NCBI GenBank assembly: GCA_003225055.1
Contig: QIAU01000175.1
Span: forward strand, 1-53,768
Origin: Acidobacteriota bacterium
Lineage (GTDB): Bacteria > Acidobacteriota > Terriglobia > Terriglobales > Acidobacteriaceae
Direction of reading: 5' to 3'
DNA length: 53,768 nt
A program made the position numbers and the translations under genes. The notes beneath the pieces are model-generated. The model was not told the origin of the DNA. It searched no databases and worked only from the letters and a program-made list of their open reading frames with translations. This document shows positions 15,317-41,655 of the stretch, piece by piece; the stretch's first letter is position 1; each line of letters starts with the position of its first letter.

Positions 15317-15338
15317 TCCAATCGCGAAAGGAACAGTG

Positions 15339-17528
15339 ATGCGGCACCAAACGCTGAAAACGTGCGTGGCAGTTGTGATCCTCTGTTCGATCTCCCTGCT
15401 TAATGCGCCCGGAGCCGAACCGCCGGCCCAAAGCACAAGGCGAAACAATGCCGGCGCCAGTGCCCGCCTGCCTGAGGTCCATCTCGAGGGGACTTACTTC
15501 AGCCGCGACGGCAAGCGCTTCATACCCGTTGGAGCGCACTGGGTTCCCGCAAAGGCGGCAATGCAGTGGCCAGTCGAATGGGATCCGAAAGATATCGAAG
15601 CCGATTTTGCCAAGATGCACGAACTCGGCTACTCCATCGTGCGACTCGACATGATGTGGGCTTGGTTTGAGCCGCGCCCTGGGGACTACAACCCAACCGC
15701 CTTTCAGCAGCTTGACTACATGGTTTCACTCGCGCACAAGTACCAGATCTATCTTCACCCAAGCTTGTTCATTGGCGGAGAAGTTGGGGAGGCGTACTGG
15801 GACGTGGCGTGGCGACATGGTCGGCATCCACACGCGGATGCCGACATGTTGCGCCTGGAAACTAACCTTGCCGCCGAGTTCGGCCGCCACTATGCCAATG
15901 AGAGCGCGATTATCGGGTGGGACCTTACTGACGAGCCGCCGTTCTGGATTGTGGGTGGCGGGGCGACGACTGACTCGATGGCGATCAACTGGACACGGCT
16001 GATCGTTGACGGTATCCGGCAATACGACAAGCTGCACCCGATCGTGGTGGGCACCAGCGGTGAAGAAACAGGCCACGGACCGTTCCGCGCGGACAACATC
16101 GCGAAATTTGTGAACTTCTTCAGCGTGCACCCGTTCACGCTGTATGCTTCGGACCTCTTTCCTGACCCGCTGTTGTCCGCCCGCGGCACGTACGGCGCTG
16201 CCTTTGAGATCGCGCTATCGCAGAGCGCCGGCCGCCCGGTCATGATCCACGAGATGGGAGCATCCACCGCCCAGTTCGCGCCAGAAAGGATCGCCTCCTA
16301 CGATCGCGCCCAGATCTATTCCGGACTGGGCGCCGGCAGCATTGGCGTGGATCTTTGGTGCTACACCGATGCTTCACCGCAGCAGTTCCACAAGGCACCG
16401 TACCTCCGCACTCCTCAAGAGACGGGCTGGGGTATGACAACCTGGGACCGGCAGGACAAGCCGCTGGCGCGAGAGTTCAAGAAGATTTCCCAAGTGGTCA
16501 GGCAGCTTGATCTTGCTGGCGTAAGCCCCGCGCCGGCGGAAATCGGGATTGTTATCCCCGACGAATGGGCGAAACCGCACGGCGACTTCTCACATTTCGG
16601 ACTCACGGGCCCGGAAGTCACTCCGTACGTTTCAACCTCTGATGCTGACGCCATGCCGGGACATGCCCAGCCGGACGTCAGTGCGGCTAACCGCTGGCTG
16701 ATGGGCTCTGCCCTAACCTCTTTTGTATTGGCCCGCCGCGCGCACCTGAAAGCTGACTTCCCTCGAGAATACGCCGATTGGGCGAAACGCCCCATGCTAT
16801 TCATGCCCTCCCCCATTACGGGCACGTCCGATCCTTTCCTCACACACATACATTCCGATTTTTATGAGAACGCCCGAAAGTATGTTGAGAATGGCGGGTT
16901 CCTGTACGCATCGGTTGCATCGGACGGCGCGATCCCCGACATGGCATCGCTGTTTGGGGCGCGTCTTGTCGATCGGGCGCCCAGTTCCGAGGTAACCTTG
17001 AAGATCGTCGCGCCATTCGGGGAACTCAAACCCGGAGATACTTTCCATTACACGGTTCCAACCCAAACCATCGAATCCTGGGGCACACTGCTGGAAGTGA
17101 CGAGCGGTAGGGTGATCGCCGTCGATCAGAACAACAACCCCGCACTAGTCGCCAATAGTATCGGACGTGGAAAGACGCTGCTCAGTGCCTATCCTATCGA
17201 GCACTACCTGGCGAACGTTCCCGCTGTTTTTGATCAGCCTGAGAACACTCACCGGATCTACGAGGCTTTTCGCGACTGGGTAGGCCTGAAACCCGTATTT
17301 CGTGCCGACGATCCCGCAATCGAAATTACGGCCTTGAATGGCGATCATCGTGGCTACGTTGTGGTGGTCAACCATGCAGCACAAGCGAAGAACGTAACTA
17401 TCACCGCGTCCGGAGTACGCTCGGCCAGCAGATTCGAACCGCAGGGAGCGACAGCGATACCGATGGATGGATCCGGGTGGAAGATGCAACTCGGTCCTTA
17501 CGAAGGGGCCATAGTCGAGTGGAAATAA
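15339..17528 (+). CDS. GH5-like (clan A) exported glycosidase
   Basis: A 729-aa secreted enzyme. A signal peptide (about 1-26) precedes a TIM barrel with the GH-A signature: IIGWDLTDEPPFW puts the acid/base at Glu199 and VMIHEMG puts the nucleophile at Glu305. Retaining beta-glycosidase chemistry is therefore expected, for example beta-mannosidase- or cellulase-like; the linkage is not decidable. After about residue 400 comes a second region with AEIGIVIPDEW and GGFLYASVASDGAIPDMASL that resembles the glutamine-amidotransferase-like trimerisation domain of GH42 enzymes. A small beta-domain follows at the end. ATG 15339 lies behind AAAGGAACAGTG; a GTG at 15336 is the alternative. The ROK gene overlaps its 3' end by about 10 bp. 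Confidence 0.82.
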   Translation: MRHQTLKTCVAVVILCSISLLNAPGAEPPAQSTRRNNAGASARLPEVHLEGTYFSRDGKRFIPVGAHWVPAKAAMQWPVEWDPKDIEADFAKMHELGYSIVRLDMMWAWFEPRPGDYNPTAFQQLDYMVSLAHKYQIYLHPSLFIGGEVGEAYWDVAWRHGRHPHADADMLRLETNLAAEFGRHYANESAIIGWDLTDEPPFWIVGGGATTDSMAINWTRLIVDGIRQYDKLHPIVVGTSGEETGHGPFRADNIAKFVNFFSVHPFTLYASDLFPDPLLSARGTYGAAFEIALSQSAGRPVMIHEMGASTAQFAPERIASYDRAQIYSGLGAGSIGVDLWCYTDASPQQFHKAPYLRTPQETGWGMTTWDRQDKPLAREFKKISQVVRQLDLAGVSPAPAEIGIVIPDEWAKPHGDFSHFGLTGPEVTPYVSTSDADAMPGHAQPDVSAANRWLMGSALTSFVLARRAHLKADFPREYADWAKRPMLFMPSPITGTSDPFLTHIHSDFYENARKYVENGGFLYASVASDGAIPDMASLFGARLVDRAPSSEVTLKIVAPFGELKPGDTFHYTVPTQTIESWGTLLEVTSGRVIAVDQNNNPALVANSIGRGKTLLSAYPIEHYLANVPAVFDQPENTHRIYEAFRDWVGLKPVFRADDPAIEITALNGDHRGYVVVVNHAAQAKNVTITASGVRSASRFEPQGATAIPMDGSGWKMQLGPYEGAIVEWK

Positions 17529-18478
17529 GCGGGGTGATTGGCGCAGTCGATATCGGCGGAACGAAGATCGCTGTTGGAATTACAGATTCCGCCGGCAAGG
17601 TTCTAACTCGCCTGGAGTGTCCGACGGAAGGGCATGGACCTTACGAGAGCGCACTTCAGCGAACGGTCACGATGCTGAAAGCAGCCGTCGCCAAGGCAGG
17701 TGCAAAGCTGAAAGGGATCGGCATCGGCTCCACCGGCCCTGTGTATCCGTTTACCGGCGAGATCGGCGATGTAAACTTTTTTCCCCATTGGCGAGGACAA
17801 AATCCGGTTAAGGATTTGGAGAAAGCCTTCGGGGTGACAACCGCGATCGAAAATGATGCCGATGCCGCCGCGTTGGGCGAAGCTCGATGGGGAGCAGGCA
17901 AGAACAAGGCGCGCCTCATTTACGTAACGGTAGGCACCGGCATTGGTGTCGGCGTCATTCTCGACGGCCACGTGTACCGCGGCGTTGATCAGGCACATCC
18001 TGAAATTGGGCACCACGTCATCGACGCGACGGGCCCGCTTTGCGATTGCGGTTTCCGGGGATGCTGGGAATCGTTAGCAGCAGGGCCGGCGATGGTCGCG
18101 TGGCTGCGAACTAATGCGCCGCCGAACCATCCACAGATACCCGAGCTCACTGCGAAAAGGATTTGTGAATTAGCGACGGAAGGCGACGAATGGGCCGTCA
18201 AGGCAGTCGCGCGCCAAGCTCGCTATCTAGGGCTGGGGCTGGCAAATCTCGTGACGATTTTTGTTCCTGACGCAATCGTTTTGGGCGGCAGCGTCATGAA
18301 CAGCGCCGTTCTGTTCCTGGACGAAATCCGCCGGACGATTGCGGCCAGTTGCCGTTTCGTTCCATATGAGCGGACGGAATTGGCGCTGGCTTCGCTAGGC
18401 AAAGACGCGAACCTGATCGGGGCAGCCAGTGTCTGGCATCACCGGTTTGACCCTATGGAGGTTAGCAATGTTGGCTGA
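17519..18478 (+). CDS. ROK-family sugar kinase
   Basis: Cytoplasmic ATP-dependent sugar kinase. The ATP-binding signature VIGAVDIGGTKIAVG is at the N-terminus and the ROK zinc motif CDCGFRGCWE lies near residue 180, with the catalytic IENDADAAALGEA region between. No helix-turn-helix precedes it, so it is the kinase and not the repressor branch. About 320 aa is normal for the family. GTG 17519 overlaps the preceding stop; GTG 17534, which begins V-I-G-A-V-D-I-G-G, is equally possible. With the SIS protein and transporter next to it, it probably phosphorylates the imported hexose or amino sugar. Its 3' end overlaps the next gene by 11 bp. Confidence 0.9.
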   Translation: MEISGVIGAVDIGGTKIAVGITDSAGKVLTRLECPTEGHGPYESALQRTVTMLKAAVAKAGAKLKGIGIGSTGPVYPFTGEIGDVNFFPHWRGQNPVKDLEKAFGVTTAIENDADAAALGEARWGAGKNKARLIYVTVGTGIGVGVILDGHVYRGVDQAHPEIGHHVIDATGPLCDCGFRGCWESLAAGPAMVAWLRTNAPPNHPQIPELTAKRICELATEGDEWAVKAVARQARYLGLGLANLVTIFVPDAIVLGGSVMNSAVLFLDEIRRTIAASCRFVPYERTELALASLGKDANLIGAASVWHHRFDPMEVSNVG

Positions 18479-19517
18479 GTTTTCCGTTATTCAAGGCGAA
18501 TATCTTCGCGACATTCTCGACCAGCCCCGGGCGCTAGAAGAGACCCTGGCCAGCTTAACGGAACTCAAACCGCTCCGAGTCGTCGCCTCGCGCGTGGATT
18601 CCGGTAAGTTCGACAGAATTGTGCTGACCGGAATGGGATCCTCCTTCCACGCGCTCCATCCCCTGTACTTGGACTTGATCGATCGTGGCATCACGTCCGT
18701 AATGGTAGAAACCTCCGAACTGGTCCACTACCAGACTCGACTCTTCGATCCCAAGACTCTAATCATCGCGGTCTCGCAATCGGGCCAGAGTGCGGAGGTC
18801 GTCCGTCTTTTGAAGGCGAATCGCGGAAAATCACGCCTGGTAGCGGTCACGAACACTCAAAAGAGCCCTCTCGCCAAGGAAGCCGACGGCGTAATCGTCA
18901 CCCGCGCTGGCAGAGAGTTCTCGGTGTCATGCAAAACCTTCGTCACCGGTTTGATGGCTTTGAAATGGCTTGGCGACATATTCGGCGGCGGCAACTTGCG
19001 CGAAACCCGGGAGGAACTCGAGACGGTTTGTTCTGCCGTTCGTAGTTACCTCAATGACTGGAAGGATCATACGGAAAAATTCGCGCAACGGCTCACTGGT
19101 ATCCGTCACCTGTTTTTTGTCGGAAGAGGATCCTCACTGGCGGCGGTCGAGATGGGTGCGTTGATCGTAAAGGAAGCCGATCACTTCCCCGCTGAGGGCA
19201 TGAGCTGTGCCGGGTTTCGGCACGGCCCGTTCGAGATGCTGAGCAAAGATACTTTCGTTTTGGTGTTTGCCGGCGCCGAGAAGACACGTGATTTGAACCT
19301 GCGCTTGCTGGGAGACATACGGGAGCAATCGGGGCGCGCCGAGCTGGTCAGTGAGGGCGGGCATTTCGAGCCATGCATTCTGCCCAAGGTGCCGGAAGCG
19401 GTCCGCCCCATCGTGGAAGCCCTGCCAGTGCAAATGATCACTCTGGCTCTTGCGGCCCAAGCCGGCCGCGAGCCGGGTCGCTTCCAGCTCGCGACCAAAA
19501 TCACCACCACGGAATAA
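18468..19517 (+). CDS. GlmS/AgaS-like double-SIS sugar isomerase
   Basis: A 349-aa cytoplasmic protein with two SIS (sugar isomerase) domains. The first carries VLTGMGSSFHALHPLYLDL and IAVSQSGQSAEVVRLL. The second carries LFFVGRGSSLAAVEMGALI and AGFRHGPFEML. This is the GlmS C-terminal layout without the glutaminase domain, as in deaminating/isomerising enzymes such as AgaS, NagB-II or FrlB, which convert an amino-sugar 6-phosphate to a keto-sugar phosphate. GlcN-6-P deamination is the most likely role but is inference. ATG 18468 follows GGAGGTTAGC inside the ROK gene, so the two are translationally coupled. Confidence 0.88.
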   Translation: MLAEFSVIQGEYLRDILDQPRALEETLASLTELKPLRVVASRVDSGKFDRIVLTGMGSSFHALHPLYLDLIDRGITSVMVETSELVHYQTRLFDPKTLIIAVSQSGQSAEVVRLLKANRGKSRLVAVTNTQKSPLAKEADGVIVTRAGREFSVSCKTFVTGLMALKWLGDIFGGGNLRETREELETVCSAVRSYLNDWKDHTEKFAQRLTGIRHLFFVGRGSSLAAVEMGALIVKEADHFPAEGMSCAGFRHGPFEMLSKDTFVLVFAGAEKTRDLNLRLLGDIREQSGRAELVSEGGHFEPCILPKVPEAVRPIVEALPVQMITLALAAQAGREPGRFQLATKITTTE

Positions 19518-19534
19518 GGGGGCTTTGCCCAAAT

Positions 19535-20797
19535 ATGGTTCGCAGCCGCTACATGGTCAGCATCGTTTTCCTGACATTCTTCGTAATGTCGCTTCTGACC
19601 AACATCCTGGGGCCGCTCGTGCCCGACATCATTAGCAGCTTCCATGTAAGCCTCGCGGCGGCGGCTTTCTTGCCGTTCTCCTTCTTTATCGCCTATGGCG
19701 TAATGTCCATTCCGGCGGGATTCCTGATCGAACGGCTCGGTGAGAAGACAGTCATGATTGCGGCTTTCCTCGCTGGAACTTTGGGTTCTCTGGGCTTCGC
19801 CGTTCACCCCACGTACGAAGTCGCGGTAGTTTCATTGTTCGTAATGGGGTCGGGGATGGCGACTTTACAAACCGCAATCAACCCTCTGCTGCGCGTAGCT
19901 GGAGGAGAGGAGCACTTCGCCTTCAATTCTGCGTTCGCGCAACTAATTTTCGGGATCGCGTCCTTCATCAGTCCCTACATTTATTCCTACCTGGTCTTGA
20001 ACCTCAGCCGCGCCGAAAAGCAGAACCCGATATTGCAGGTGCTTCGTCCGGTCACGCCCGGCACGCTGCCATGGGCGTCAATGTATTGGATCTTCGCAGC
20101 CTTCACCGTGGTGATGATCGTCGTTTTGGTTCTCAGCAGGTTTCCAAAGGTTGAACGCACGGCGGACGAATCGGCCGGATCGTTCGAGATGTACAGTAGC
20201 CTGTTTCGCAGGCCCATGGTGTGGGCGTTCTTCGGGTGCGTGTTTGCTTATGTCGGTTGCGAGCAAGGCACCGCCGATTGGATCTCTAAGTTTCTCGCTA
20301 CCTACCACGGGTTTGACCCGCACACGACCGGAGCGACAGCCGTGTCCTGGTTCTGGGGGTTGCTGACAGCCGGCTGCTTTATCGGTATGGGATTGCTAAA
20401 ACTTTTCGACAGTCGGCACGTACTGATCGGGACCTGTTCGGGTGCGTTAGTTTGCCTGACTCTCGCAATTTTCGGCCCCGCCAATGTCTCCCGGTTCGCG
20501 TTTCCCGCGATTGGACTGTTCGCGTCGGTGATGTGGCCGATCTTGGTATCGCTAGGCCTCAACTCGGTCGCGGAGCACCATGGCTCGTTCTCGGGAATTT
20601 TGAGCACTGGAATCATGGGTGGCGCGGTGGTGCCGGTGATCATCGGCCAGATCGGCGATCACTTCGGCCTGCGCGCCGGAGTTGCCTTCCTGTATCTGAT
20701 GTTTGGCTGCGTGCTGAGCGTGGGGTTCTGGGCAAAACCCATCATCACCAACGCAACCATCACACTGAAGAAGGCGATGGCCGAACACACAACTTAG
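19535..20797 (+). CDS. MFS sugar transporter (FHS/FucP-like)
   Basis: A 420-aa inner-membrane transporter with about twelve hydrophobic segments. The N-terminal half contains LVPDIISSFHVSLAAAAFLP and the A-like loop AGFLIERLGEKTVMIAA. The overall look is that of the FucP/GluP-type sugar:proton symporters of the major facilitator superfamily. ATG 19535 lies 17 bp after the SIS stop, with AAGGGGG upstream at a rather long distance. In the operon it would carry the monosaccharide or disaccharide released in the periplasm to the ROK kinase and SIS enzyme. Confidence 0.88.
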   Translation: MVRSRYMVSIVFLTFFVMSLLTNILGPLVPDIISSFHVSLAAAAFLPFSFFIAYGVMSIPAGFLIERLGEKTVMIAAFLAGTLGSLGFAVHPTYEVAVVSLFVMGSGMATLQTAINPLLRVAGGEEHFAFNSAFAQLIFGIASFISPYIYSYLVLNLSRAEKQNPILQVLRPVTPGTLPWASMYWIFAAFTVVMIVVLVLSRFPKVERTADESAGSFEMYSSLFRRPMVWAFFGCVFAYVGCEQGTADWISKFLATYHGFDPHTTGATAVSWFWGLLTAGCFIGMGLLKLFDSRHVLIGTCSGALVCLTLAIFGPANVSRFAFPAIGLFASVMWPILVSLGLNSVAEHHGSFSGILSTGIMGGAVVPVIIGQIGDHFGLRAGVAFLYLMFGCVLSVGFWAKPIITNATITLKKAMAEHTT

Positions 20798-21234: not shown

Positions 21235-22431
21235 CTAGTCGAACGGCAGAAATCCGAGCAGAGCGATCAAGCAAAATCCTGCGACGTTGTTGTACTCGTA
21301 GCTGTCAGGATCTGCCGACTCGTGGACACCTCCCGTAGCAGGGTCGTACAGCTTGGTCACCATCCACCGCAACGATTGCGATGGCTCCGGTTGTCGGAGA
21401 GCAGCGGCGGCCATGCTAAGCAAGGCGACGCTCAGGCTGGAGGCAGGTTTACCGTTGGCTTCGACCAGGGCGCCGTCGCTGCGCACCTTGGAGCGTAACC
21501 ACGCCAGAGCGTGACGGTTTTCCGGAGTATCTCCCCACATCCATGCCAGGTAGCCCTGCGCAAAGGCATATTGCGCATAATCGAGAACCCCTTTCTCATT
21601 GAGGCCCAATCCGTATCGCCCTTTCGTCTTTCGAAACAACCGCTGCGGTGTCGATGCCATGAGGAATCGGGCGATCCGTTCGTAGGCACTGACGTGGTAC
21701 AAAAGGGCTCCTGCCTGCATGCCGAGGTACACATCGCCCTGATCTGCGCTGTACTTGAATGCATAGAGATGCCATTGCCCATCGGAGGCATGTTGCTGCC
21801 ATGAGCTCCGGCTGAAACCATCCCTATCCAGGTTGTGCTGGATAACGAAATCCAACGCTGCTTTGGCGTTCGCGGCATAGGTCCGAGCCAAGTTATCGCT
21901 GCCAGTAAGCTCCTTATCTAGATACAAGAGGTAAACGAAGAGCCCTGAAGTCGCATCCACACCACGCACGTCCGTGATACCCGCGCCCGGTGAGATCGGA
22001 ATCGAAGCAAACGGCGAGTTGGCCGAGTATACATAATGCCAGCTTCCTCTCCAGCGCTGGTCGCTCATTTCCTCGCGTGCCGCCAGCCAACGAATCCCGC
22101 GCTCCAACCCGTCCAGGTAACGCCGATCCTTGGTAGCAGCGTATGCCGCGCCGAGCCCGATGAGAGCGTACTCCATATTGGAGTCCTCATTCACCGTGTT
22201 CACACCCGAGCGATCGGGAATGGCCCCTGCGGCGTTTTGAAGCGAAAGAATGAAATCCGCGATGCGCAGGGCCTGCGGCCATTCGGTGGCTCTCCGGTTC
22301 ACACTGGCCTTGCTGTCCGAGACTGCTTGCGCATTCAAAATTGACGGCGTTGAGCAAGCGCCCGGACACATTGCGGCGCTAAGCAGGAGCGCGGCCGCTG
22401 CTCTCGTCCGGACCATGGTCAACGATCTCAC
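21235..22431 (-). CDS. Exported alpha/alpha-barrel protein, putative glycosidase
   Basis: A 398-aa protein with a signal peptide (AAALLLSAAMCPGAC). The rest is helical with repeated aromatic-rich turns typical of six-hairpin (alpha/alpha)6 barrels, for example GLERGIRWLAAREE, GSWHYVYSAN and QYAFAQGYLAWMWG. I could not assign a GH or polysaccharide-lyase family, and an epimerase-type role is also possible. It is downstream of the receptor at 22503 with 71 bp between them, so they probably form one transcript under the GTATAGAC-containing promoter. The GTG at 22431 and ATG at 22416 are both possible starts. Confidence 0.7.
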   Translation of the reverse strand: MRSLTMVRTRAAAALLLSAAMCPGACSTPSILNAQAVSDSKASVNRRATEWPQALRIADFILSLQNAAGAIPDRSGVNTVNEDSNMEYALIGLGAAYAATKDRRYLDGLERGIRWLAAREEMSDQRWRGSWHYVYSANSPFASIPISPGAGITDVRGVDATSGLFVYLLYLDKELTGSDNLARTYAANAKAALDFVIQHNLDRDGFSRSSWQQHASDGQWHLYAFKYSADQGDVYLGMQAGALLYHVSAYERIARFLMASTPQRLFRKTKGRYGLGLNEKGVLDYAQYAFAQGYLAWMWGDTPENRHALAWLRSKVRSDGALVEANGKPASSLSVALLSMAAAALRQPEPSQSLRWMVTKLYDPATGGVHESADPDSYEYNNVAGFCLIALLGFLPFD

Positions 22432-22502: not shown

Positions 22503-25500
22503 TTACCAGTCGAACCGGGCGCTCAACTGCCCATAGCGATAGCCGGAGATGCTCGTCACATGCCCGAAGAAAGCGCTGGTCATGTCTAAAGTGGGAGTGC
22601 CCCAGTGGTGGCGGTTGAAGACGTCGAAGAACTGCGCGCGCAAGCTGAGTAGATAACGCTCGCTCGAGCCAAACCGGAAGTGCTTGGCGATGTTCAGGTC
22701 CTCATCCGAGTTTCCGAAGTCCCTCAGGTACCCGAGGTAAGAATACTTCTCCGTGGAGAAACTTCCCGGGGCGGGTTGCGAAAAAGCGTTCGGATTGAAG
22801 ACGAGGCTGCCGGGATCGGATCCTACACCGCCGCCTTGAACCCAACCTGGGTTGTACCCCTTGAACGTGCCACTGGACAAGTTCACGTTCGGATTTCTCT
22901 GTGCGAAAACGCCAGACCAGCCGGGATATTGTACCGGTGCCATGATGGTGTTCAGCGGCGCGCCGGTGCGATAGCTCAACTGCATCCCAATCTTCCAGCC
23001 GCCCAGGACATAGTTGTCCAGCCACTCCCGGTTTGTCTTCCACCGCTGCTGCGATCCGAACGGCAGATCGTAGAGCACATAGCCCTTCAGCTGATGGGTA
23101 TAGTCCCACGGTGTCAACTGATCGGTAAGACGAGGCAGCAGATAGGGATCCTGCGTGTGGATCGTCCCAGACTGCGAATCGGCAAAGGCGCCGTTCGGGC
23201 TGGCGCTTCCCGTAGAACGGGACAGGGTGTAGTTGACATCCATGGTGACGCCGCGGAGGTTGTTCGTTTTGACCTCAGCAACCATGGCTTCATAGTTGCT
23301 CACGGAAAGATCGGCGTTGACGAGAAAGACACCACTTTGGGGCGCCTGAGAGGTTATCTGCGGGTACGGCGCGAGGGCTTGGTAAGCGGTTCCCGAAAAG
23401 CCTGCAAAGGGATACGGAACCCCAGCCGTCGCAGCGCTGGCCGGATCTGTCACCATGTCTTGCACATGACCCGAGTTATACAGCTTTAAATAGGTGCTCT
23501 GGGCAGGAAAGTTATGTGGCCAAATGCTCCCGTCATGCAGGTGGCGGCCGTGATTTCCCAGGTAATTCAGCGAAAGCACCGTGCCCTTGCCGAGCTGACA
23601 TTCACCGCCTACATTCCAGTTCTGCACCATGCCCATGGTCAGCGCATCGGGCCAGACGTAGGCTACACCGCCGCTGAGGTTGGATTGGCTAGGAACGCGC
23701 GCCGGATAAACAGTCTGTCCAGGGTAGGCGCCGGATGCGGCGTCCCAGTTAAACGAAGGCACGACGGGAATGTTGTTGACCACCGTGTTGGATCCCGCGA
23801 ACCCGAAAGCGCCCGCGGTGAACCCCGGCGGATAGAAGGCCGGAACGCCATTCCACTGGTTCATTGCCAGCGGAGCGTAAGTGATTCCGTAGTGGCTGCG
23901 CAGCACCAGATTGCCCAGCGCCCGGTAGGACACACCGATGTGCGGTGCAAACTGATGGAAATTCTGGTTGCGCTCAAATGAATCGCTGCCATTTTGAGCC
24001 CACTCCCAGGCACCATTGTAGGGGCCCCAAATTCCCCGATTAATCCCGATATCGAAGTTGGACCAATGGCCGTTCTTTTCGTGGAACCGGCCGTTGACGT
24101 CCCAGCGCAGGCCCAGATTGAGTGTCAGGCGACTGCTGACCTTAAAATCGTCGGAGGCAAACAGTGACATGCGCTTCCGACGCCCATACAAGGCCGAGGT
24201 GACGCTTTGCGAACCGTCGTGCACTTCGCCTAGCATGAAGTTAGCAAACGCAAAACCCACGTAGGGCCATACTTGATTGTTGTTCGGCGCAAGGGTTTGG
24301 CTGGTGAAGTTGTATGCGCGAATCCCTCCCAGGTAGACAGCGTTCATGCCGCGCGCCTGCACGTCGCCGCCAAACTTCAGCATATGCCGCCCGCCTGCCC
24401 ACGACACCGTGTCGCTGGCCACGACGTTGTACGGAGTGTAACGGTCGTTATAGGGCGGGCCAATGGTCGACTCAGAGTATCCTCCGCCGGCCCCGCCGTC
24501 CGTAAAGGCTATGGTGGGAAAGTTGCTGCCATTCGTCCCAGGGATTCCCACGCCGCTCGAGTTAAACGGCGTCGGCGGTTTGTCTGAGGCCATGTGCTGG
24601 TTGTATGCCACAGATGCAGTGTTCAAGAGCGTCGGGCTGACCGTGTAAAAGTGCTGCAGGCGAACCGACCAGTCCCGCTGCGGCTGATTGTCGCCAGTGC
24701 TCAGCGGCCCGCCGGTTGAACTCCCAATCTGCCAAAGCGATCCTGGGGCCAAAGAGTAAAAATTCCACCAGTTGAAGCCTCCGGAAATGCGCTGCTTAGC
24801 GTTAATGTTCTGGTCCAGCTTCAGGTCCAAGTGGGTGCTGGTGACGTGCGAATAGCCACCCGACAACGCGGGGAAATTATTCACCAATCCCGGGCCGATT
24901 GGGGCGTAGCCATTGCCATACAGCTTTTGTGCGACGCCCACGGCAATGGGACTGAGTTGACTCTGGGGAATAATGTTTCCCGGAAACGGCTGATGGCAGG
25001 TATTCCCGCCACTCACGACCGGATTCTGGGGATTGTAGATCTCTCCGATGTTGATTTGACGCCCGCAGGCGTCCGCGGCCGGACTACCGTTGATCATCAG
25101 TGGGCCGCCAAGTAGGGCGCTGAAATCGCCATGCAGGAAAGCGGGAGTCGGAACCGTGGCCGCATTGGGCGAAAATGTGAGCTGGGCGTTGTGGAAACGC
25201 TCGTACGATGCAAAAAAGAAAGTGTGGTTTTTCCTGATCGGTCCGCCAAGACTGGCGCCCCAGTCGTCAAACCGATTCCGCTGTCGCTGAATGTGAAAGT
25301 AATTATTGTCCGAGGAATTGGCATTCAGCACCTCATTCTGCAAGAAACCGTAGCCGCTGCCATGGAACTGGTTCGTGCCGGATTTCATTTCCAACAGGAT
25401 CGTGCCGCCGCCGGTCGACGCTCCTTCCGCAGTCATCCCACTGATCTGCACGTTCATCTCCTGCACCGCCTCCATGCCGATGTCTTGGATGAACCCTTGT

Positions 25501-26105
25501 AGTCCCGCTGTGGCGTCGACGCCGTCCACCATCACGTTCTTGGTAACGTTCTGCGATCCGGCGATGTGCCCACTGTAGTTGCCGCCGTTGGTGGTCGCTA
25601 TATTCGAATAGATGAAGCTAGTTACGTCCCGTCCTACGCCGGAGGAATTGATGTCCAGCGGCAGGTCCTTCATCGAGTTGGCAGTCATCACTGTGCCAAC
25701 ATCGGTGGTCTCCGTGTCCAGCATCACGGGTGCGGTTGTGACTTCCACCAATTCGGTGACTGCTCCGGGCATCATCTTGACATTGATCTGAGCCACCTGC
25801 GCGGTTGCCAGTGTCAAATCGGAACGAACTACTTTCTTGAAACCATTCTTTTGGTACTCGACCGAGTACGTTCCCACGGGGAGCGCCGACACGCGGTAGA
25901 TGCCCGCCTCGTTGGACTCTCCCGTGAAGCGTGCTCCAGTATCCATGTTCGTCACGGTCACGCTCGCGCCGAGAATCACCGCACCGGAGGAATCGGTGAC
26001 GGTGCCGGTGATCGTTGCTTTGTCCACCTGAGCCGGCAGCAACGCGGTGAACAGGAGTGGGAGGACCAACCCTACTGCCCAGCTAGTCAACTTGCCTATT
26101 CTCAT
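22503..26105 (-). CDS. TonB-dependent receptor, Oar-like (1200 aa)
   Basis: The signal peptide (WAVGLVLPLLFTALLPAQ) precedes the regulatory-like domain (ATITGTVTDSSGAVILGASV). The plug follows with VMVDGVDATAGLQGFIQDIG, and the barrel ends QLSARFDW with a terminal Trp. In place of the common LPLNGRN motif the plug reads LPLDINSSGVGRDV, so it belongs to a different receptor subgroup from those at 11840 and 42726. ATG 26105 is chosen because it follows AGAGAGGTTTCC and starts the signal peptide directly; the frame extends to 26213 but would cross the promoter. A near-perfect promoter with an internal GntR-type site lies 80-110 bp upstream, so import is likely controlled by the adjacent GntR. 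Confidence 0.93.
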   Translation of the reverse strand: MRIGKLTSWAVGLVLPLLFTALLPAQVDKATITGTVTDSSGAVILGASVTVTNMDTGARFTGESNEAGIYRVSALPVGTYSVEYQKNGFKKVVRSDLTLATAQVAQINVKMMPGAVTELVEVTTAPVMLDTETTDVGTVMTANSMKDLPLDINSSGVGRDVTSFIYSNIATTNGGNYSGHIAGSQNVTKNVMVDGVDATAGLQGFIQDIGMEAVQEMNVQISGMTAEGASTGGGTILLEMKSGTNQFHGSGYGFLQNEVLNANSSDNNYFHIQRQRNRFDDWGASLGGPIRKNHTFFFASYERFHNAQLTFSPNAATVPTPAFLHGDFSALLGGPLMINGSPAADACGRQINIGEIYNPQNPVVSGGNTCHQPFPGNIIPQSQLSPIAVGVAQKLYGNGYAPIGPGLVNNFPALSGGYSHVTSTHLDLKLDQNINAKQRISGGFNWWNFYSLAPGSLWQIGSSTGGPLSTGDNQPQRDWSVRLQHFYTVSPTLLNTASVAYNQHMASDKPPTPFNSSGVGIPGTNGSNFPTIAFTDGGAGGGYSESTIGPPYNDRYTPYNVVASDTVSWAGGRHMLKFGGDVQARGMNAVYLGGIRAYNFTSQTLAPNNNQVWPYVGFAFANFMLGEVHDGSQSVTSALYGRRKRMSLFASDDFKVSSRLTLNLGLRWDVNGRFHEKNGHWSNFDIGINRGIWGPYNGAWEWAQNGSDSFERNQNFHQFAPHIGVSYRALGNLVLRSHYGITYAPLAMNQWNGVPAFYPPGFTAGAFGFAGSNTVVNNIPVVPSFNWDAASGAYPGQTVYPARVPSQSNLSGGVAYVWPDALTMGMVQNWNVGGECQLGKGTVLSLNYLGNHGRHLHDGSIWPHNFPAQSTYLKLYNSGHVQDMVTDPASAATAGVPYPFAGFSGTAYQALAPYPQITSQAPQSGVFLVNADLSVSNYEAMVAEVKTNNLRGVTMDVNYTLSRSTGSASPNGAFADSQSGTIHTQDPYLLPRLTDQLTPWDYTHQLKGYVLYDLPFGSQQRWKTNREWLDNYVLGGWKIGMQLSYRTGAPLNTIMAPVQYPGWSGVFAQRNPNVNLSSGTFKGYNPGWVQGGGVGSDPGSLVFNPNAFSQPAPGSFSTEKYSYLGYLRDFGNSDEDLNIAKHFRFGSSERYLLSLRAQFFDVFNRHHWGTPTLDMTSAFFGHVTSISGYRYGQLSARFDW

Positions 26106-26184: not shown

Positions 26185-26213
26185 AATGTATTCCTGTCTA
26201 TACATATTGTCAA
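26185..26213 (-). promoter_or_regulatory. Receptor promoter with GTATAGAC operator in spacer
   Basis: Read on the minus strand: TTGACA (26213-26208), exactly 17 bp, then TACATT (26190-26185). GTATAGAC (26203-26196) is inside the spacer, where a bound repressor excludes polymerase. The 8-mer agrees with the HutC-type consensus GTMTAKAC and resembles Bacillus NagR (YvoA) dre sites as I recall them. The same 8-mer occurs at 28462-28469. Confidence 0.75.
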
Positions 26214-26450: not shown

Positions 26451-27281
26451 CTACTCAACAGCTGTGGCGGGAATGGCAAGCACTGCCCGGTAGCGATCCC
26501 CACGATAGACGGAATGGGCGGTCTCAACCGGCTTTCCCTCCACGCTCCACAAGGTCCGGGTGATCGCCAGCAGACTGGCGTGGCGTGGAATTTCCAGCAG
26601 TTCTGCCTGCTGGCGGGTGGCCGAGCGGGCTTCCAGGATCTCGTCGGCCCGGGTCACGCGAATACCATAGCGTTCACGCAGCGTTTGGTACAGTGAGGCA
26701 GAAGCGAAATCGATCTTATCCAGGCCCGGAAATTGCTCGCGCGAAAGCCATACCTCCTCAATCGCGACGGGCACGCCATCTGCGCACCTTAAGCGGCGCA
26801 AATGAAAAACAGGTGACCCAATCTCGATGCGTAGGCCGGACGCGACCTCGGCTGGGGCCGGTATCATGTCTGCACTAAGCACGCGGGAGGAGGGCTGCAG
26901 CCCTAAAGCCCGCATTTCGGCGGTGAATCCAGCCAGGTGCATGATGTCCTTTTCAACCTTGGGTTGGCTGACAAAGGTACCTTGGCCCTTGTGGCGTGAA
27001 GCAAAACCTTGCGTCTTGAGAGCCTGCAAAGCATGGCGCGCTGTCATCCTGCTGACGGCGCAGGCGCGGCTGAGTTCGTCTTCACTGGGCAGAGCGTCCC
27101 CGGGACGCAATCGCCCACTCTGAATCATCTTCAGCAGTTGCGTCTGGATCTGAAAATACATGGGTGTGAAGCTGCTCTTGTCCAGCGGGGCGAACTCCCA
27201 GTGGCGGTGATTGGAATTCGGTTTGACCGCAGATATCGCGGATTTCTTTTTTCGTGTTTGGACACTCGCTGTCTCGCGCAT
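26451..27281 (-). CDS. GntR regulator, NagR/DasR-like (HutC subfamily)
   Basis: A 276-aa repressor-type regulator. After a basic N-terminal extension (about 30 aa) comes the complete winged helix (PMYFQIQTQLLKMIQSGRL; LPSEDELSRACAVSRMTARH; HKGQGTFV). The UTRA domain follows (about 120-272, with VFHLRRLRCADGVPVAIEEV and RADEILEARSA), which in NagR/DasR binds GlcN-6-P or GlcNAc-6-P. It is 27 bp downstream of the RhaT-like gene in the same direction. Two identical 8-mers matching the consensus for this subfamily lie in the promoters of the adjacent receptor and the NanE-NanK gene, so it most likely represses both until an amino-sugar phosphate is present. Confidence 0.9.
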   Translation of the reverse strand: MRETASVQTRKKKSAISAVKPNSNHRHWEFAPLDKSSFTPMYFQIQTQLLKMIQSGRLRPGDALPSEDELSRACAVSRMTARHALQALKTQGFASRHKGQGTFVSQPKVEKDIMHLAGFTAEMRALGLQPSSRVLSADMIPAPAEVASGLRIEIGSPVFHLRRLRCADGVPVAIEEVWLSREQFPGLDKIDFASASLYQTLRERYGIRVTRADEILEARSATRQQAELLEIPRHASLLAITRTLWSVEGKPVETAHSVYRGDRYRAVLAIPATAVE

Positions 27282-27308: not shown

Positions 27309-28340
27309 TCAGTAACTCGCCCTGCTCAGCACGACGATGGCGACTAGCAAAACTAGAATACCGGAATACATCAAGTTCCGTGTAGCGCGCGAAACGCGCC
27401 GCCATTCACCGACTCCGACGCCGATCGCATTGGCAAGGAGAAGACCGGTAGCCAGGCTCAGCGGCCAACCGATCGAGGTGCCGAGAGGACCAAGCCGGGG
27501 CGCGGCGGCGCCATACACGAAGATGCTTCCGCCCCACAACACAGCCATCAAAGCTGTGAGTGAATACAAGCGCACTGCGCCGGGCTGGCTAAACTTTGCC
27601 ATACTGCGATTCTTTAACATCAGATACCCGCAAAAAATAAGGTTGGCAATCGATCCTGCGCCGAGCATCACCCACCAGATCAGATTTGTGCTGGAAAACT
27701 CGCTCAGCCCGGCGTTTCGCCCGTATTCGGCGATGGGCTTGGCCAGAGCGAACCCGATGTTGAAAACGGCGGAAAGCACACCTGCTCCAGCAGCCAAGAG
27801 CAGCGCCACGCTCATGGGACGTGCGCGCCCCACCAAGTCGCCACGCTCGCCTTCGACCCCAATCCTCTGCTCGCGGCGGCGCCCCGCCACGCCACATAAG
27901 GCAATTCCTATAACCTCGATGGCCACTCCGGCTACGATCATTTTTCCGGTGAAGGAAAACAGTTTTCGTGGCGCCAGCAAGAGCATCGGCAGCAACGATC
28001 CCAGCGCAGAGCTGATCGCGAGTACGAGGGTGTTGGCCAAGGAGATACCGATAGCGCTGACACTCTGCCCAAACATGATGGCCCCGAAACCCCAAGTAAA
28101 TCCTGCAGCTATGGCGATCCAGATAGCATGCTTAGGTGCGTGCGCAAGAACTGTCCAACTTTGTGGTGCGATCGCAGCGAGGATCACGGTCGGCAGGAGC
28201 AAGCAAGAAAATGCAATGAAAACACTCCACACGTTTTCCCATTCCCAGCGCCCCAAGAAGCGCATAGGGAGTGTGAAGCTTCCGTTCATCAGTCCGGACA
28301 AGATCGCCAACAGCGAGCCCACCAGCAGCGTGTTTTTCAT
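27309..28340 (-). CDS. RhaT-family sugar transporter
   Basis: A 343-aa inner-membrane protein with about ten hydrophobic segments matching the L-rhamnose:proton symporter family (RhaT, DMT superfamily). Recognisable parts are LLAILSGLMNGSFTLPMRFL, FTWGFGAIMFGQSVSAIGIS and GSIFVYGAAAPRLGPLGTSIG. No rhamnose catabolic gene (RhaA, RhaB, RhaD) is in the window; its partners are a NagR-like regulator and a NanE-NanK fusion. Transport of ManNAc or a related sugar is therefore a better guess than rhamnose, by context only. ATG 28340 follows GGCGGAGAA. It is divergent from NanE-NanK and shares their 157-bp control region. Confidence 0.85.
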   Translation of the reverse strand: MKNTLLVGSLLAILSGLMNGSFTLPMRFLGRWEWENVWSVFIAFSCLLLPTVILAAIAPQSWTVLAHAPKHAIWIAIAAGFTWGFGAIMFGQSVSAIGISLANTLVLAISSALGSLLPMLLLAPRKLFSFTGKMIVAGVAIEVIGIALCGVAGRRREQRIGVEGERGDLVGRARPMSVALLLAAGAGVLSAVFNIGFALAKPIAEYGRNAGLSEFSSTNLIWWVMLGAGSIANLIFCGYLMLKNRSMAKFSQPGAVRLYSLTALMAVLWGGSIFVYGAAAPRLGPLGTSIGWPLSLATGLLLANAIGVGVGEWRRVSRATRNLMYSGILVLLVAIVVLSRASY

Positions 28341-28431
28341 TTCTCCGCCCCGTATCTCTCGAGAAAGGCTCAGCTAAGGTGTACTGCCCCTGTGCCTCTT
28401 TAAGAAAAATTCGTTGAGGCACGGTGTGGTT

Positions 28432-28469
28432 TTGTGTTGTTATTGCAGAATAAGTATCATAGTCTATAC
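28432..28469 (+). promoter_or_regulatory. NanE-NanK promoter with GTCTATAC operator
   Basis: TTGTGT (28432-28437), exactly 17 bp, then TATCAT (28455-28460). GTCTATAC (28462-28469) follows directly and should cover the transcription start. It is the reverse complement of the GTATAGAC in the receptor promoter. A bound regulator here would block initiation, and could also affect the divergent RhaT-GntR transcript. Confidence 0.7.
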
Positions 28470-28497
28470 AACCAGACAATGCACCTAGGAAAATCGT

Positions 28498-30227: not shown

Positions 30228-31607
30228 GTGCAAGGACCGCGTATCTGGTTAATCTCCCTGCTCGTTGCACTCGTCTCGACATCAGCTTGGGCGCAACAGC
30301 AGGTCGCGCGCCTGGAACTAATCCCGCCATCGCCAGTGACCAACAGAGTGATGCTGGACATTCGCGGGGCCGTGGAGAATAACGGCGATTCGGACCGACA
30401 GTATTCGCTCTCGCTCTTTCTGGACCGGGAGTCGGCAGCTACTCTGCTCCATAAGGAGAACGTGAAAGTACACGCTCATAGCAACGTCGGCATTTACTAT
30501 CGTCATTCTACTGAGCAATGGGCGGGCCGGCATCGCCTGATCCTTGTCGCAGCCAACGCGAGCGGCCCTGTTCGCGTGATGCGCAATCTGGAAGTACTTC
30601 CCTCTGACATTCGCTCCACTCGTACGATCGATGGCGCCTGGGTAGGCATCGCACACTGGAGCGAGGAGGAAGGCCGCCATTGGAATTCGACGATCCGAAG
30701 GCTGACCGACGCCGACTGGCACGACCAGATTCGTGGTATGCACAGCCTGGGCATGGACACAGTCGTTATTCAGGAGAGCTTTCGGAATCAGGAATACTAT
30801 GGCAGGAACAGGATGTCCAGCACGGGCTATAAAGGATTGGCTTATTATCCGTCCGAACTGTTCCCGGGACGCGCGCAGGTTAACGCACACGACGCCATCG
30901 AGGCGGTCTTGTCGGAAGCGGACCGCCTGCAGATGAATGTTTTTCTTGGTGTGGGCATGTATGCGTGGTTCGATTTCAGTAAAGATTCCCTCGACTGGCA
31001 CAAGAAGGTTGCTCAGGAGCTATGGCATCGCTATGGCCATCATCCTTCTTTCTATGGCTGGTACGTCTCTGAGGAAACGTATGGCAGCCTGATCCCCGAC
31101 CAGGGGGAATCGGTGAAAGATCGTTACAGGCAGGAAGTAATCACGTTTTTTCGCGAGTTCCAGGCGTTTTGCCGCCAACTTGCGCCAGAGAAACCGATCA
31201 TGCTCGCGCCGAATGCCCACGGAATGCTGAAGTCGCAGGATGTCTGGCCGGTTGTGCTGGCCCATCTCGATATTGTTTGCCCCTTTGCCTTTCATCGCAT
31301 GCCCGAAGGGGACATCACCGGCGAACAGTCTGCACAGATTTGGCAGGCCATGTGCGATAAGGCCCAAGCGCATTTGTGGATGGATATGGAAGCATTCCTG
31401 TTTGAAGGCGTGGCTCTAATTCCTCGTCCGATTGGCGGCTTAATCCAAGATCTTCAGCGTTTCCCGAATTTCGAGAAGATTCTTTGTTACCAATATTCGG
31501 GCATCTTCAATTCCCCGAAAGCAAGAGTGCAGCCAGGTGGGTCTCCCACCGTCGTGCTCTATCGAGACTATCTGGCGTATCGGCAGGCCAGGAATCAAGA
31601 AAACTAA
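30228..31607 (+). CDS. DUF4434 putative glycosidase with N-terminal beta domain
   Basis: 459 aa. A signal peptide ends at WAQQQ; residues 25-125 look like a beta-sandwich (VMLDIRGAVENNGDSDRQYS), and from about 135 the DUF4434 barrel follows. Glu283 in GWYVSEETY and Glu388 in WMDMEAF match Glu177 and Glu276 of the paralogue at 4622-5671 and are candidate catalytic residues. The paralogue has a Tat-like signal and lacks the beta domain. GTG 30228 follows ATAGGAGTGAAATCGCC; the frame is open further upstream into the NanE-NanK gene but without a convincing start. Position 80 bp after NanE-NanK suggests cotranscription and an amino-sugar glycan as substrate, which is inference. Confidence 0.8.
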   Translation: MQGPRIWLISLLVALVSTSAWAQQQVARLELIPPSPVTNRVMLDIRGAVENNGDSDRQYSLSLFLDRESAATLLHKENVKVHAHSNVGIYYRHSTEQWAGRHRLILVAANASGPVRVMRNLEVLPSDIRSTRTIDGAWVGIAHWSEEEGRHWNSTIRRLTDADWHDQIRGMHSLGMDTVVIQESFRNQEYYGRNRMSSTGYKGLAYYPSELFPGRAQVNAHDAIEAVLSEADRLQMNVFLGVGMYAWFDFSKDSLDWHKKVAQELWHRYGHHPSFYGWYVSEETYGSLIPDQGESVKDRYRQEVITFFREFQAFCRQLAPEKPIMLAPNAHGMLKSQDVWPVVLAHLDIVCPFAFHRMPEGDITGEQSAQIWQAMCDKAQAHLWMDMEAFLFEGVALIPRPIGGLIQDLQRFPNFEKILCYQYSGIFNSPKARVQPGGSPTVVLYRDYLAYRQARNQEN

Positions 31608-31985: not shown

Positions 31986-32258
31986 GAGAAGGCTAATGCC
32001 GACGAAGGGGAAGAGGGCGAAGAAGGGCTAGCCATTCCTCTGCGGTGGCTGCCGAAAAACCTGCTCCTCGACGGAGTGGCATTCGGAAAACGCTTTATCT
32101 GCAATCCGCATCTGCCGCTTCGCCTGAGGCTCGAGACGGCGCTGAGCGATTACGACCACGCCACGTCCTACGGCGGGGGCATGAAGGGATACACGGACTA
32201 CCCAACGCTCGAAATTGCGATCCATACCCAGGTCGCAGAAGTCGAAGCTTGCCGTTGA
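31986..32258 (+). other. Unassigned open frame, possible gene fragment
   Basis: From a TGA at 31983 the frame is open for 91 codons: an acidic run (ADEGEEGEEG), then PLRWLPKNLLLDGVAFGKRF and TSYGGGMKGYTDYPTLEIAI. The second part has the balance of a real protein, but I do not recognise a family, there is no Shine-Dalgarno, and it ends shortly before repeat A. It may be the tail of a lost gene. Confidence 0.3.
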
Positions 32259-32362
32259 GCAAAGGAAGCGCGCAATGAGAGGTCACTTGAAGGAAAGATC
32301 GCTTTGGTGACAGGGGATGTGCGTCCCATCCCTCGAAGACTTCTCGCCTGGTATTTAGCCAG

Positions 32363-32457
32363 CGGATCGCGTGCCCGGCCCGCCAAATCAACTGATCTCG
32401 CACCTTCGCCTTGTGCCGCCACCTGCCGGAGTATGTCGGCGTTTGGTGCACGGAAAG
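32363..32457. repeat. Dispersed repeat A, copy 2
   Basis: Second copy of the 95-bp sequence at 22-116, about 95% identical by eye and in the same orientation. It is followed 250 bp on by repeat B copy 2. Confidence 0.85.
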
Positions 32458-32549
32458 GGCCAAAAGAGGGCAACGAAGTGGGGCCAAGCGCCAAACATCC
32501 CGGCGACGACACCCATTCCCGTTGCTCCGCGGTGCTCCCTCCGAGTACC

Positions 32550-32650
32550 CGTCGTCGTCTTTGTCGTCATCACCGTCATCTTCTTTACCGTTGCCTACAT
32601 CTTCATCTTCATCTTCCTCTTCCTCTTCCTCTTCTTCATCTTCATCGTCT
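32550..32650. repeat. Low-complexity (TCWTCN) triplet tract
   Basis: A pyrimidine-rich run of TTC/ATC/CTC triplets. Translated on the plus strand it gives a purely hydrophobic stretch (VAYIFIFIFLFLFLFFIFIV); on the minus strand it gives an almost purely acidic one (PDDEDEEEEEEEEDEDEDVG). Neither reading has a credible start, and both run into repeat A, so I treat it as a simple-sequence repeat and not a gene. Confidence 0.75.
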
Positions 32651-32706
32651 GGCTCTTGTCGAAGGAAGACATCGGCAGCTAGCAAGCGATTAGGAGGGTC
32701 TGAGTC

Positions 32707-32786
32707 GGGGCATTCCGGACGTAATCTGCTCATGTCCAATGGTACGCCTCCTACCCCTTGGCAGACGCAGCGACAATCGATCAGAC
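32707..32786. repeat. Dispersed repeat B, copy 2
   Basis: Second copy of the 80-bp sequence at 3435-3514, with 4 mismatches by eye and the same orientation. Confidence 0.85.
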
Positions 32787-40661: not shown

Positions 40662-40695
40662 AATGAACACCTCCAGTTTCACAGCGAGATAGGCT

Positions 40696-41655
40696 TCAGC
40701 AGAACCACTGCTGAGCGATCTGTTGCACTCGCAAGCGCAAGGTCCAGTTCTTTGTGGCACGGGGTCGGAGCAGATCGTTTTCTCCACGCGTTATCGCTTC
40801 GCACAATGAATCGGGACGTCCGCTACATGGCTCCAGTGCCACCGTGTAGTGCCCCCCACGCGCAGGATCGGGCCATCCGCCCTGGCAGGTCCAAAGGCCG
40901 ATGTATGGCACCTTCATGGGGTCAAAGCGAAAGGAAATTGATTCGCCGGAAGAAGGCTTTGCAAACGAGCAACTCCCATCCGTAAGCCGAGCAGTGAACA
41001 CTTTATCCGCCAAGCCTGCGGTCGGAGGGGCGAGGATATCAAGACGTTCGCTGCCACGATGGGTTCCCGCCACCGGCCAACGACATCTGTTGCCGAATTT
41101 CCCCAGGCGATCGTGGAGCGAGTAGTTGATCAACACCTCCTTGACCTCAGCCGGGAGGACGATTCGGCTTCCAGGGTCCACCGCCAACAGCGGATGCGCA
41201 GACCAAAGGAATTTCATATCTGAATCGCTGTCATTCACAAGCTCATAATCGATGACCACGTCTTGTGATTCGAGACGAATGGCCTTTGTTAAGTGATATG
41301 GCAGGACTCTTCCAGAGGCCGAAAGATGGAGTCGCTCACCGCTAACCCTGGCGTGCCAAGGCACGGACCATAGTTCTCCGTGATCGGGCAACAACTGCCC
41401 GCTTGGATCACGACAGGCTGAAACAGTTGGCAAACACTCATCGAAGCCGCTCGTGTCGAATGCTTCGAACGGATCGCCGTATTTCGGACGGCGGAGAGGC
41501 CGCTGTGGCTGGAGGAGAAACTCGTGGCCGCTTGCGATCCTCACCAGCGACGTCATCTTGGCGCCCAACTCCGGCAGGAATCGCACTCTTACCGTGCGAT
41601 TGTCCATGGTGACGCGACGGAAACCACCGACTGCGTCTTCTGTGATTACGGTCAT
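40696..41655 (-). CDS. Aldose-1-epimerase-like protein
   Basis: A 319-aa protein of the galactose mutarotase-like beta-sandwich superfamily. VRFLPELGAKMTSLVR, FDECLPTVSAC, LPDHGELWSVPW and the central FLWSAHPLLAVDPGS (with the catalytic-type His) fit the family. The end reads YTVALEPCSGRPDSL, where EP is the usual position of the catalytic Glu. It would interconvert alpha and beta anomers of a released sugar. No signal peptide is visible, so it should be cytoplasmic. It precedes the GH30 gene in one probable operon. Confidence 0.85.
   Translation of the reverse strand: MTVITEDAVGGFRRVTMDNRTVRVRFLPELGAKMTSLVRIASGHEFLLQPQRPLRRPKYGDPFEAFDTSGFDECLPTVSACRDPSGQLLPDHGELWSVPWHARVSGERLHLSASGRVLPYHLTKAIRLESQDVVIDYELVNDSDSDMKFLWSAHPLLAVDPGSRIVLPAEVKEVLINYSLHDRLGKFGNRCRWPVAGTHRGSERLDILAPPTAGLADKVFTARLTDGSCSFAKPSSGESISFRFDPMKVPYIGLWTCQGGWPDPARGGHYTVALEPCSGRPDSLCEAITRGENDLLRPRATKNWTLRLRVQQIAQQWFC

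Follow-up and report, generated by a model that had tools for sequence, protein, structure and literature searches.

RhaT of Escherichia coli is an L-rhamnose/proton symporter. The same bacterium takes up N-acetylmannosamine (ManNAc) by the ManXYZ PTS, the NagP transporter of Bacillus subtilis is a PTS permease as well, and among the enzymes handling these sugars NanE acts on ManNAc-6-P and AGE, the GlcNAc 2-epimerase, on free ManNAc. In the published rhamnose regulons RhaT is tied to the rha genes, in gammaproteobacteria as in Bacteroidales (PMC3870299), and ManNAc uptake in Streptococcus pneumoniae has been assigned to ABC transporters and a symporter (PMC3302838). A RhaT homologue in the agarose PUL of Bacteroides uniformis has been proposed, from its context, for AHG (anhydro-galactose) (PMC5849685), so that the idea of a non-rhamnose role for the RhaT family has been raised before. 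The case described here resembles that one in that a non-rhamnose sugar is proposed from context, and differs from it in the sugar, the accessible part of that work making no amino-sugar link. A link of RhaT to ManNAc or GlcNAc was not found in the literature searched, which included the available part of PMC10203303 and few subscription journals.

We have analysed a stretch of 53,768 nucleotides from a soil member of the Acidobacteriota, hereafter the window, in which a RhaT-family gene lies between a divergent nanE-nanK fusion and a gene for a GntR-type regulator (Table 1). The placement of this gene in a ManNAc locus, and the absence of rhamnose genes, had been put forward in an initial annotation, and both hold: the protein matches PF06379, NanE-NanK lies divergently 157 bp away, and E. 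coli protein queries for rhaA, rhaB, rhaD, rhaM, rhaS and rhaR give no match in the window at E≤1e-3. As no rha genes are present, an assignment as a rhamnose locus was rejected. Comparison with relatives places the conserved locus at about 21.2 to 31.6 kb, which is wider than the limits given initially, and a search of the window for structured RNA returned no Rfam match at the gathering threshold. We consider it probable that the RhaT-like protein is a DMT-fold importer of an N-acetylhexosamine, most likely free ManNAc. That it transports amino sugars appears somewhat more probable still, and ManNAc itself, although favoured from the context, stands at about even chances.

Table 1. Features of the conserved locus and its control elements (positions in the window)
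Feature	Position	Strand	Remarks
Protein without Pfam match	21235..22431	-	56-72% identity in L060-L063, L071, L088
CarboxypepD_reg + outer-membrane beta-barrel protein (OMP)	22503..26105	-	Downstream of the GntR gene
Second predicted operator, core GTCTATAC	26193..26206		Some 90-100 bp upstream of the probable OMP start
GntR/HutC-family (UTRA) regulator, NagR/YvoA-like	26451..27281	-	GntR + UTRA domains; 27 bp past the RhaT stop
RhaT-family (PF06379) DMT-fold transporter, 343 aa	27309..28340	-	ATG start; Pfam, model; proposed N-acetylhexosamine (ManNAc) importer
Divergent RhaT/NanE-NanK control region, 157 bp	28341..28497		Intergenic
Predicted operator, HutC core GTCTATAC	28459..28472		In the RhaT/NanE control region
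Fused NanE (ManNAc-6-P 2-epimerase) + NanK-type ROK kinase, 549 aa	28498..30147	+	Single ORF, divergent from RhaT
DUF4434 (PF14488) protein	30228..31607	+	GTG start at 30228; signal-like N-terminus by eye; glycosidase-like fold; after NanK

The transporter belongs to the RhaT family, with a match over profile positions 1-337 of 344 (81.7 bits, cut-off 27), and shares with E. coli RhaT this full-length match, the W-x-WE motif and a predicted helical DMT-type fold; however, the two are only 23% identical (77/335), fall into different clades and differ in that the window gene has no rhamnose genes about it. Indeed, all four NCBIfam RhaT equivalog models score it below their cut-offs (209.3/369, 175.5/468, 102.5/523 and 82/509 bits), and neither score nor grouping and rha linkage identifies it as an equivalog of the L-rhamnose/proton symporter. 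The AlphaFold2 model (pLDDT 87.4, pTM 0.86) predicts a helical transporter with the fold of the DMT superfamily, its best solved counterpart being the choline importer LicB (Z 28.8, rmsd 2.3 over 271 residues; Foldseek 4.6e-5), followed by 5i20, SLC35B1, nucleotide-sugar transporters and Vrg4. A search for a solved relative by sequence found none (best E 0.57).

The fused protein contains a NanE domain (PF04131, residues 38-230) and a ROK kinase domain (PF00480, residues 239-544). The former is a NanE, passing the PRK01130 subfamily cut-off (255 bits vs 189) and matching the solved NanE 4utt at 1.8e-43. The kinase part has a generic ROK match of 209.5 bits and misses the ManNAc kinase equivalog NF047821 (125.1 of 450 bits); among solved kinases it matches glucokinase 3vgk at 3.2e-42, human ManNAc kinase at 2.6e-38 and bacterial NanK at 1.2e-28, and so by these scores appears slightly nearer glucokinase than human ManNAc kinase and clearly nearer than bacterial NanK. 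The sugar of this domain cannot be read from its sequence, and both the likeness to glucokinase and the missed equivalog cut-off count against a firm assignment to ManNAc. With the E. coli nan operon (nanA-T-E-K) the window shares the NanE and NanK enzymes; it differs in having no NanA match and no NanT, in the fusion of NanE with NanK, and in a NagR-like rather than NanR control.

As to the outer genes of the locus, the ATG at 26105 appears by eye the likelier start of the OMP gene, whose reading frame is open up to a TTG at 26213. The model of the DUF4434 protein (pLDDT 74.7) has a likeness to GH2 enzymes and dextranases, with TM scores of about 0.4, and tells nothing about its sugar, while comparison with solved proteins gave no clear sequence relative (best E 0.048) and a literature search that covered few subscription journals returned no paper dealing with both DUF4434 and glycoside hydrolases. 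The DUF4434 alignment was built without L062, L070, L071, L072 and L092. The protein at 21235-22431 was not identified by comparison with solved proteins (best E 0.3). Elsewhere in the window we observed a second DUF4434 protein at 4622-5773 (-), a GH30_2 family protein at 39102-40787 (-) and a low-complexity segment at 32095-32739, with an Asp/Glu run on one strand, that is probably not a gene. A second sugar cluster lies at 11717-20797 (+), with an OMP barrel, a GH42/GH5-like protein, a ROK kinase, a GlmS/NagB-II-type SIS protein and a gluP/fucP-type MFS, the last two below their cut-offs, and may serve another amino sugar.

The regulator has the GntR helix-turn-helix and UTRA domains of the NagR/DasR type. 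That a NagR-like regulator follows RhaT had been proposed beforehand and is borne out by its best solved relatives, NagR/YvoA of B. subtilis (1.3e-42; 90 of 235 aligned columns identical) and DasR of Streptomyces (5.8e-40). NagR contacts GlcN-6-P or GlcNAc-6-P through 15 residues (PMC4333415), and of these 13 are kept in the window's protein, the exceptions being S88 to G and I166 to L. This agreement is not automatic, since the second GntR protein of the window keeps 9 of the 15. A different picture is obtained on the DNA side, where Arg38, which in NagR helps to read the GG of the operator (PMC4333415), is replaced by Asp, Glu or Ala in the window's regulator and most of its orthologues, and by Gly in L085 and L096; the operator predicted here is without the GG of dre sites. 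It does contain the HutC-type core GTMTAKAC (PMC4494728), as in the NagR and DasR systems. The control region shared with NanE-NanK, which the initial annotation had pointed out, is confirmed as the 157 bp between the divergent genes, with one predicted operator inside. The predicted regulon would differ from those of NagR and DasR in having a RhaT homologue, and not a PTS permease, as the transporter under control.

Conservation of this operator was analysed at several levels. The HutC core is found upstream of the OMP gene in all eight loci examined. A TTGTATAGTCTACTAT-like element, sought in the 21 divergent RhaT/NanE intergenics against 200 shuffles with a consensus built from the same rows, scores 13-16 of 16 in 16 of the 21, above all shuffles; it reaches 11-12 of 16, equal to the best shuffle, in L064, L088, L091 and L038, and is absent from the L161 intergenic (9 of 16). 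Across the 7.4 Mb assembly TTGTATAGNCTA has a single exact match, within the RhaT/NanE control region. Allowing one mismatch adds 11 sites, which is no enrichment (12 vs 44 for a reversed-pattern control). A looser core pattern also matches the window at 46620 and 51747, and a search near the NagA gene on contig C87 found no operator core.

We have then examined the gene neighbourhoods in relatives, using a profile built from four close RhaT homologues that led to 40 loci, all in Acidobacteriota; being built on two peptide patterns, the locus scan reaches little beyond the RhaT clade. Leaving aside contig-end pieces, NanE is present in each of the 18 loci in which RhaT is 61-82% identical to the window's (L060-L075, L088, L091), and within the same set NanK is found in 16 and GntR in most, L064 ending at a contig edge and L067 having a partial NanE only. 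In the latter (L067:9343-9762) the partial NanE, without a NanK match, lies beside a 71% identical RhaT and is either a broken gene or an assembly fault. No NanE is present on L098 and L099, which are short pieces from contig ends, and the RhaT of L095 is an outlier (32% identity). The 19 loci with RhaT of 50-57% identity have AGE in seven, NagA-like genes in four, NagB in four and NanE in three; nine of the 19 have no NanE, AGE, NagA or NagB in the stretch examined, several of these stretches being short, and in three of the nine (L083, L085, L092) the contig carries a NanE at a distance of 11-15 kb. Both RhaT subtypes occur together in L069 and L070, in one locus with NanE, NanK, NagB, NagA-like, AGE and GntR. 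The epimerase of L039 resembles solved GlcNAc 2-epimerases (6f04, 1.2e-79; 2gz6, 3e-76) far more than cellobiose epimerases (3.3e-19), and this search with one protein led us to reject a cellobiose epimerase assignment, the other AGE proteins being 64-76% identical to it.

In a larger set of 52 sequences (the window, the 40 loci and 11 further ones; 56 RhaT rows, with one contig entered twice as L096 and L179), NanE lies within 400 bp of RhaT divergently in 21 rows and co-directionally in six (gaps of 15-45 bp). Seven more RhaT rows have NanE further away on the same strand and one has it divergent and further away, the remaining 21 having no NanE in the stretch. Protein clustering over 49 loci recovered NanE/NanK in 31, OMP in 27, GntR in 25, DUF4434 in 20, AGE in 10, NagB in seven and NagA-like proteins in six, a count in which two contigs figure twice (L096 = L179, L083 = L182; recognised by their equal lengths and, for the first pair, by identical proteins as well), so that AGE stands for nine distinct contigs. 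Since the arrangement of RhaT with NanE recurs in other genomes it is not due to chance, and a one-off neighbourhood was rejected as it recurs across genera. Some loci have additional genes: GatZ/KbaZ-like and PfkB genes adjoin NanE-NanK in L037 (12090-15535), L071 and L074, and may point to a branch for tagatose phosphate or GalNAc there, and LacI-type genes occur in three loci in which no GntR was seen (L081, L087, L089).

Co-location was also analysed free of any bias from the way in which the loci had been retrieved, by searching the NanE and RhaT profiles separately in one set of 299 genomes of the class, taking the best 150 RhaT matches and NanE matches of at least 65 bits and leaving out G160, G177 and G057, which lie near the Pfam cut-off. 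Among these 150, a NanE occurs within 15 kb of 18 of the 23 RhaT genes with scores of 284 bits or more (within 2 kb of 12), as against none of the 127 scoring lower, 40 of which are in NanE-bearing genomes; the 284-bit line was set after the gap in the scores was seen, and the Fisher p of 4e-19 is overstated, related genomes having been treated as independent. Viewed from NanE, 13 of 22 in frames of at least 500 aa, which were taken as fusions, lie within 15 kb of a RhaT of at least 284 bits, compared with five of 28 in shorter frames.

The opposite case is given by 13 NanE loci without RhaT, four of which have an NCBIfam-confirmed MFS transporter (L189, L190, L173, L172). In L189 and L190 a gluP-type MFS adjoins NanE (323 and 332 bits at a cut-off of 203; with the NagP model, 212-215 out of 625), and these loci also carry NagA and a regulator of the window's type (53% identity). 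They look like one transporter replaced by another in the same role: as the RhaT-like proteins do, these NagP- and gluP/fucP-like porters adjoin NanE and this GntR, yet they belong to the MFS superfamily, which is unrelated to DMT. In L173 the MFS accompanies a NanA-like gene and NanE-NanK, and in L172 it accompanies NanE-NanK; L170 has a possible further MFS and L188 a sodium/solute symporter, and no such transporter was found near the other seven, some of whose contigs are short.

The relation between linkage and descent was analysed with a tree of 74 RhaT proteins (LG+C20), from which L053, L194 and the short fragments of L091, L093 (two), L097, L098 and L099 were left out. The window's protein falls in a clade of 48 rows with support 100/100, of which 34 are labelled with NanE, six with AGE and one with nag genes, seven being unlabelled; every row of the tree so labelled falls in this clade. 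A label takes account of genes up to 12 kb away, the stretches available for this being of unequal length, and two of the rows are identical to each other (L096 = L179). E. coli RhaT forms a separate branch (100/100) with two further proteins and with a rhamnose-type copy from contig C247 of the same genome as the window, and a third copy of this genome lies elsewhere, as do paralogues beside ROK kinases; the latter (L041-L046, L191-L193, L198) are about 35-38% identical to the window's protein where measured. Because some end branches are long, the deeper joins are unsure. When the 48 rows are aligned with four RhaT proteins of the rhamnose type, differences appear at 21 positions that are conserved within the clade, including W46 to C, L219 to N, 222 to W and a change from bulky residues to G-G at 270/271; the smaller helix residues could leave room for an N-acetyl group. 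The phylogeny with genome context thus gathers all NanE, AGE and nag rows in one clade, as the proposal of an amino-sugar substrate would have it, and constant linkage with rhaA, rhaB and rhaD, which would have spoken for rhamnose, is not seen, since rhaA/B/D/S/R have no match in the 52 sequences and one distant rhaM occurs in a single one (L161).

These results bear directly on the view that the protein is still an L-rhamnose/proton symporter which has amino-sugar genes as neighbours by chance. The full-length PF06379 match and the RhaT names returned by NCBIfam, at sub-threshold scores, are in its favour; the separate clade, the missing rha genes, the 21 conserved differences with the mere 77 of 335 residues shared with E. 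coli RhaT, and the presence in the same genome of another RhaT beside rhaM and rhaB homologues make it hardly tenable. The assembly (7.41 Mb, 98.7% complete) has three RhaT-family genes, in four rows of which two are pieces of one gene. The C247 copy shares 34% identity with E. coli RhaT, and its neighbours include rhaM (37%) and rhaB (38%) homologues, with no rhaA or rhaD seen nearby. The genome thus already has a plausible rhamnose RhaT, the window's protein being a different paralogue.

The genome also bears on sialic acid. NanE and NanK belong to the classical genes of sialic acid use, and Neu5Ac or a derivative might be imported and cut to ManNAc inside the cell; the relative L173, with a NanA-like gene beside an MFS and NanE-NanK, fits such a scheme. 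However, nanA has no match in the 52 RhaT sequences, and the best NanA match of the genome reaches 108.8 of 382 bits, none being over the cut-off, although the NanA-like protein of L173 is also under it (191.8 bits). Lacking the NanA lyase of a nan cluster, the locus was rejected as a sialic acid locus, and we regard this scheme as very improbable. The genome has a single NanE over cut-off, that of the window, and likewise a single NagA over its cut-off (339 bits), on C87, followed by a GlmS/NagB-II-like protein; a search for AGE gave no match. With this enzyme set a route from ManNAc over ManNAc-6-P, GlcNAc-6-P and GlcN-6-P to fructose-6-P can be drawn without sialic acid. A published survey took NanE as proxy for a sialic acid cluster and found the Acidobacteriota NanE mostly from environmental habitats (PMC10570557); the RhaT/NanE loci question this equation. 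There may be a further amino-sugar porter, since at 17-21 kb the window has a gluP/fucP-type MFS accompanied by a ROK kinase and a SIS protein of its own, and the genome contains three more gluP-type rows, none over cut-off.

What was observed directly comprises the genes present and their conservation, the separation in the tree, the class of fold predicted, the conserved operator and the conserved effector-contact residues. The linkage to NanE that follows phylogeny supports the ManNAc or other amino-sugar substrate initially suggested, which for ManNAc itself would remain a reading from sequence context. A different main sugar is conceivable, GlcNAc or several N-acetylhexosamines about equally, with no more than a minor side stream of ManNAc passing through NanE; the ManNAc explanation overlaps with this one, the difference lying solely in the main sugar. 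In agreement with it, six loci have nagB and RhaT as same-strand neighbours 65-108 bp apart, a pairing that suits any N-acetylhexosamine, six contain NagA-like genes, the ligand contacts of the regulator fit GlcNAc-6-P or GlcN-6-P, the MFS proteins beside NanE in L189 and L190 are gluP/NagP-like, and the NanK domain is glucokinase-like. On the other hand, NanE or AGE, both ManNAc enzymes, are found within 12 kb of 40 of the 48 clade rows, and GlcNAc alone needs neither. Since the sugar common to NanK-NanE and AGE is ManNAc, free or as the 6-phosphate, we favour it over GlcNAc alone and consider GlcNAc as main sugar doubtful.

The size of the substrate is a further point, as an amino-sugar disaccharide or uronic-acid conjugate might be carried instead of a monosaccharide, for which the GH-like neighbours of some loci would account (DUF4434, a weak GH88 match, GH31 and GH2). 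GH31 genes lie near RhaT in L082, L087, L089 and L090, directly after it in L087 and L089, and L087 also has the GH2 gene. This possibility appears rather improbable: no glycosidase is constant across the loci, and the signal-like N-terminus of the window's DUF4434 protein, as judged by eye, together with a TAT signal match on the L087 GH2, makes cleavage likely outside the cytoplasm.

For ManNAc as the imported sugar, the following pathway can be proposed, in which we infer substrate, coupling ion, direction, repression logic and the part played by DUF4434 from context. The outer-membrane barrel protein would admit a glycan or sugar, from which secreted glycosidase-like DUF4434 proteins may release the monomer, and its passage through the inner membrane would be the task of the RhaT-like protein, presumably in symport with protons as for E. 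coli RhaT. The NanK domain would then phosphorylate ManNAc and the NanE domain convert ManNAc-6-P to GlcNAc-6-P, with NagA and the GlmS/NagB-II-type protein from C87 leading on to fructose-6-P. The GntR protein would repress the RhaT/NanE-NanK pair and the OMP gene from the GTCTATAC operators, and would be released by GlcNAc-6-P or GlcN-6-P.

What would be new here is that, within a transporter family already known, a clearly bounded subfamily is predicted to have changed its substrate. We put forward, tentatively and at less than even chances, that this RhaT-derived DMT subfamily of the Acidobacteriota is a dedicated ManNAc importer for sialic-acid-independent scavenging, with its own NagR-type regulon, an outer-membrane barrel and secreted DUF4434 glycosidases by which ManNAc would be set free from polysaccharides of microbial or other origin. 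RhaT homologues commonly receive the name 'L-rhamnose/proton symporter', and if ManNAc import is true this name would be wrong for the Acidobacteriota group. In that case NanE without NanA would signal the use of ManNAc, and not of sialic acid, among bacteria of soil and peat, and the small number of reported ManNAc uptake systems would be extended by a secondary importer with a DMT fold. The two types, for rhamnose and for N-acetylhexosamine, would further constitute a natural pair for mapping substrate choice within the family, with 21 candidate positions.
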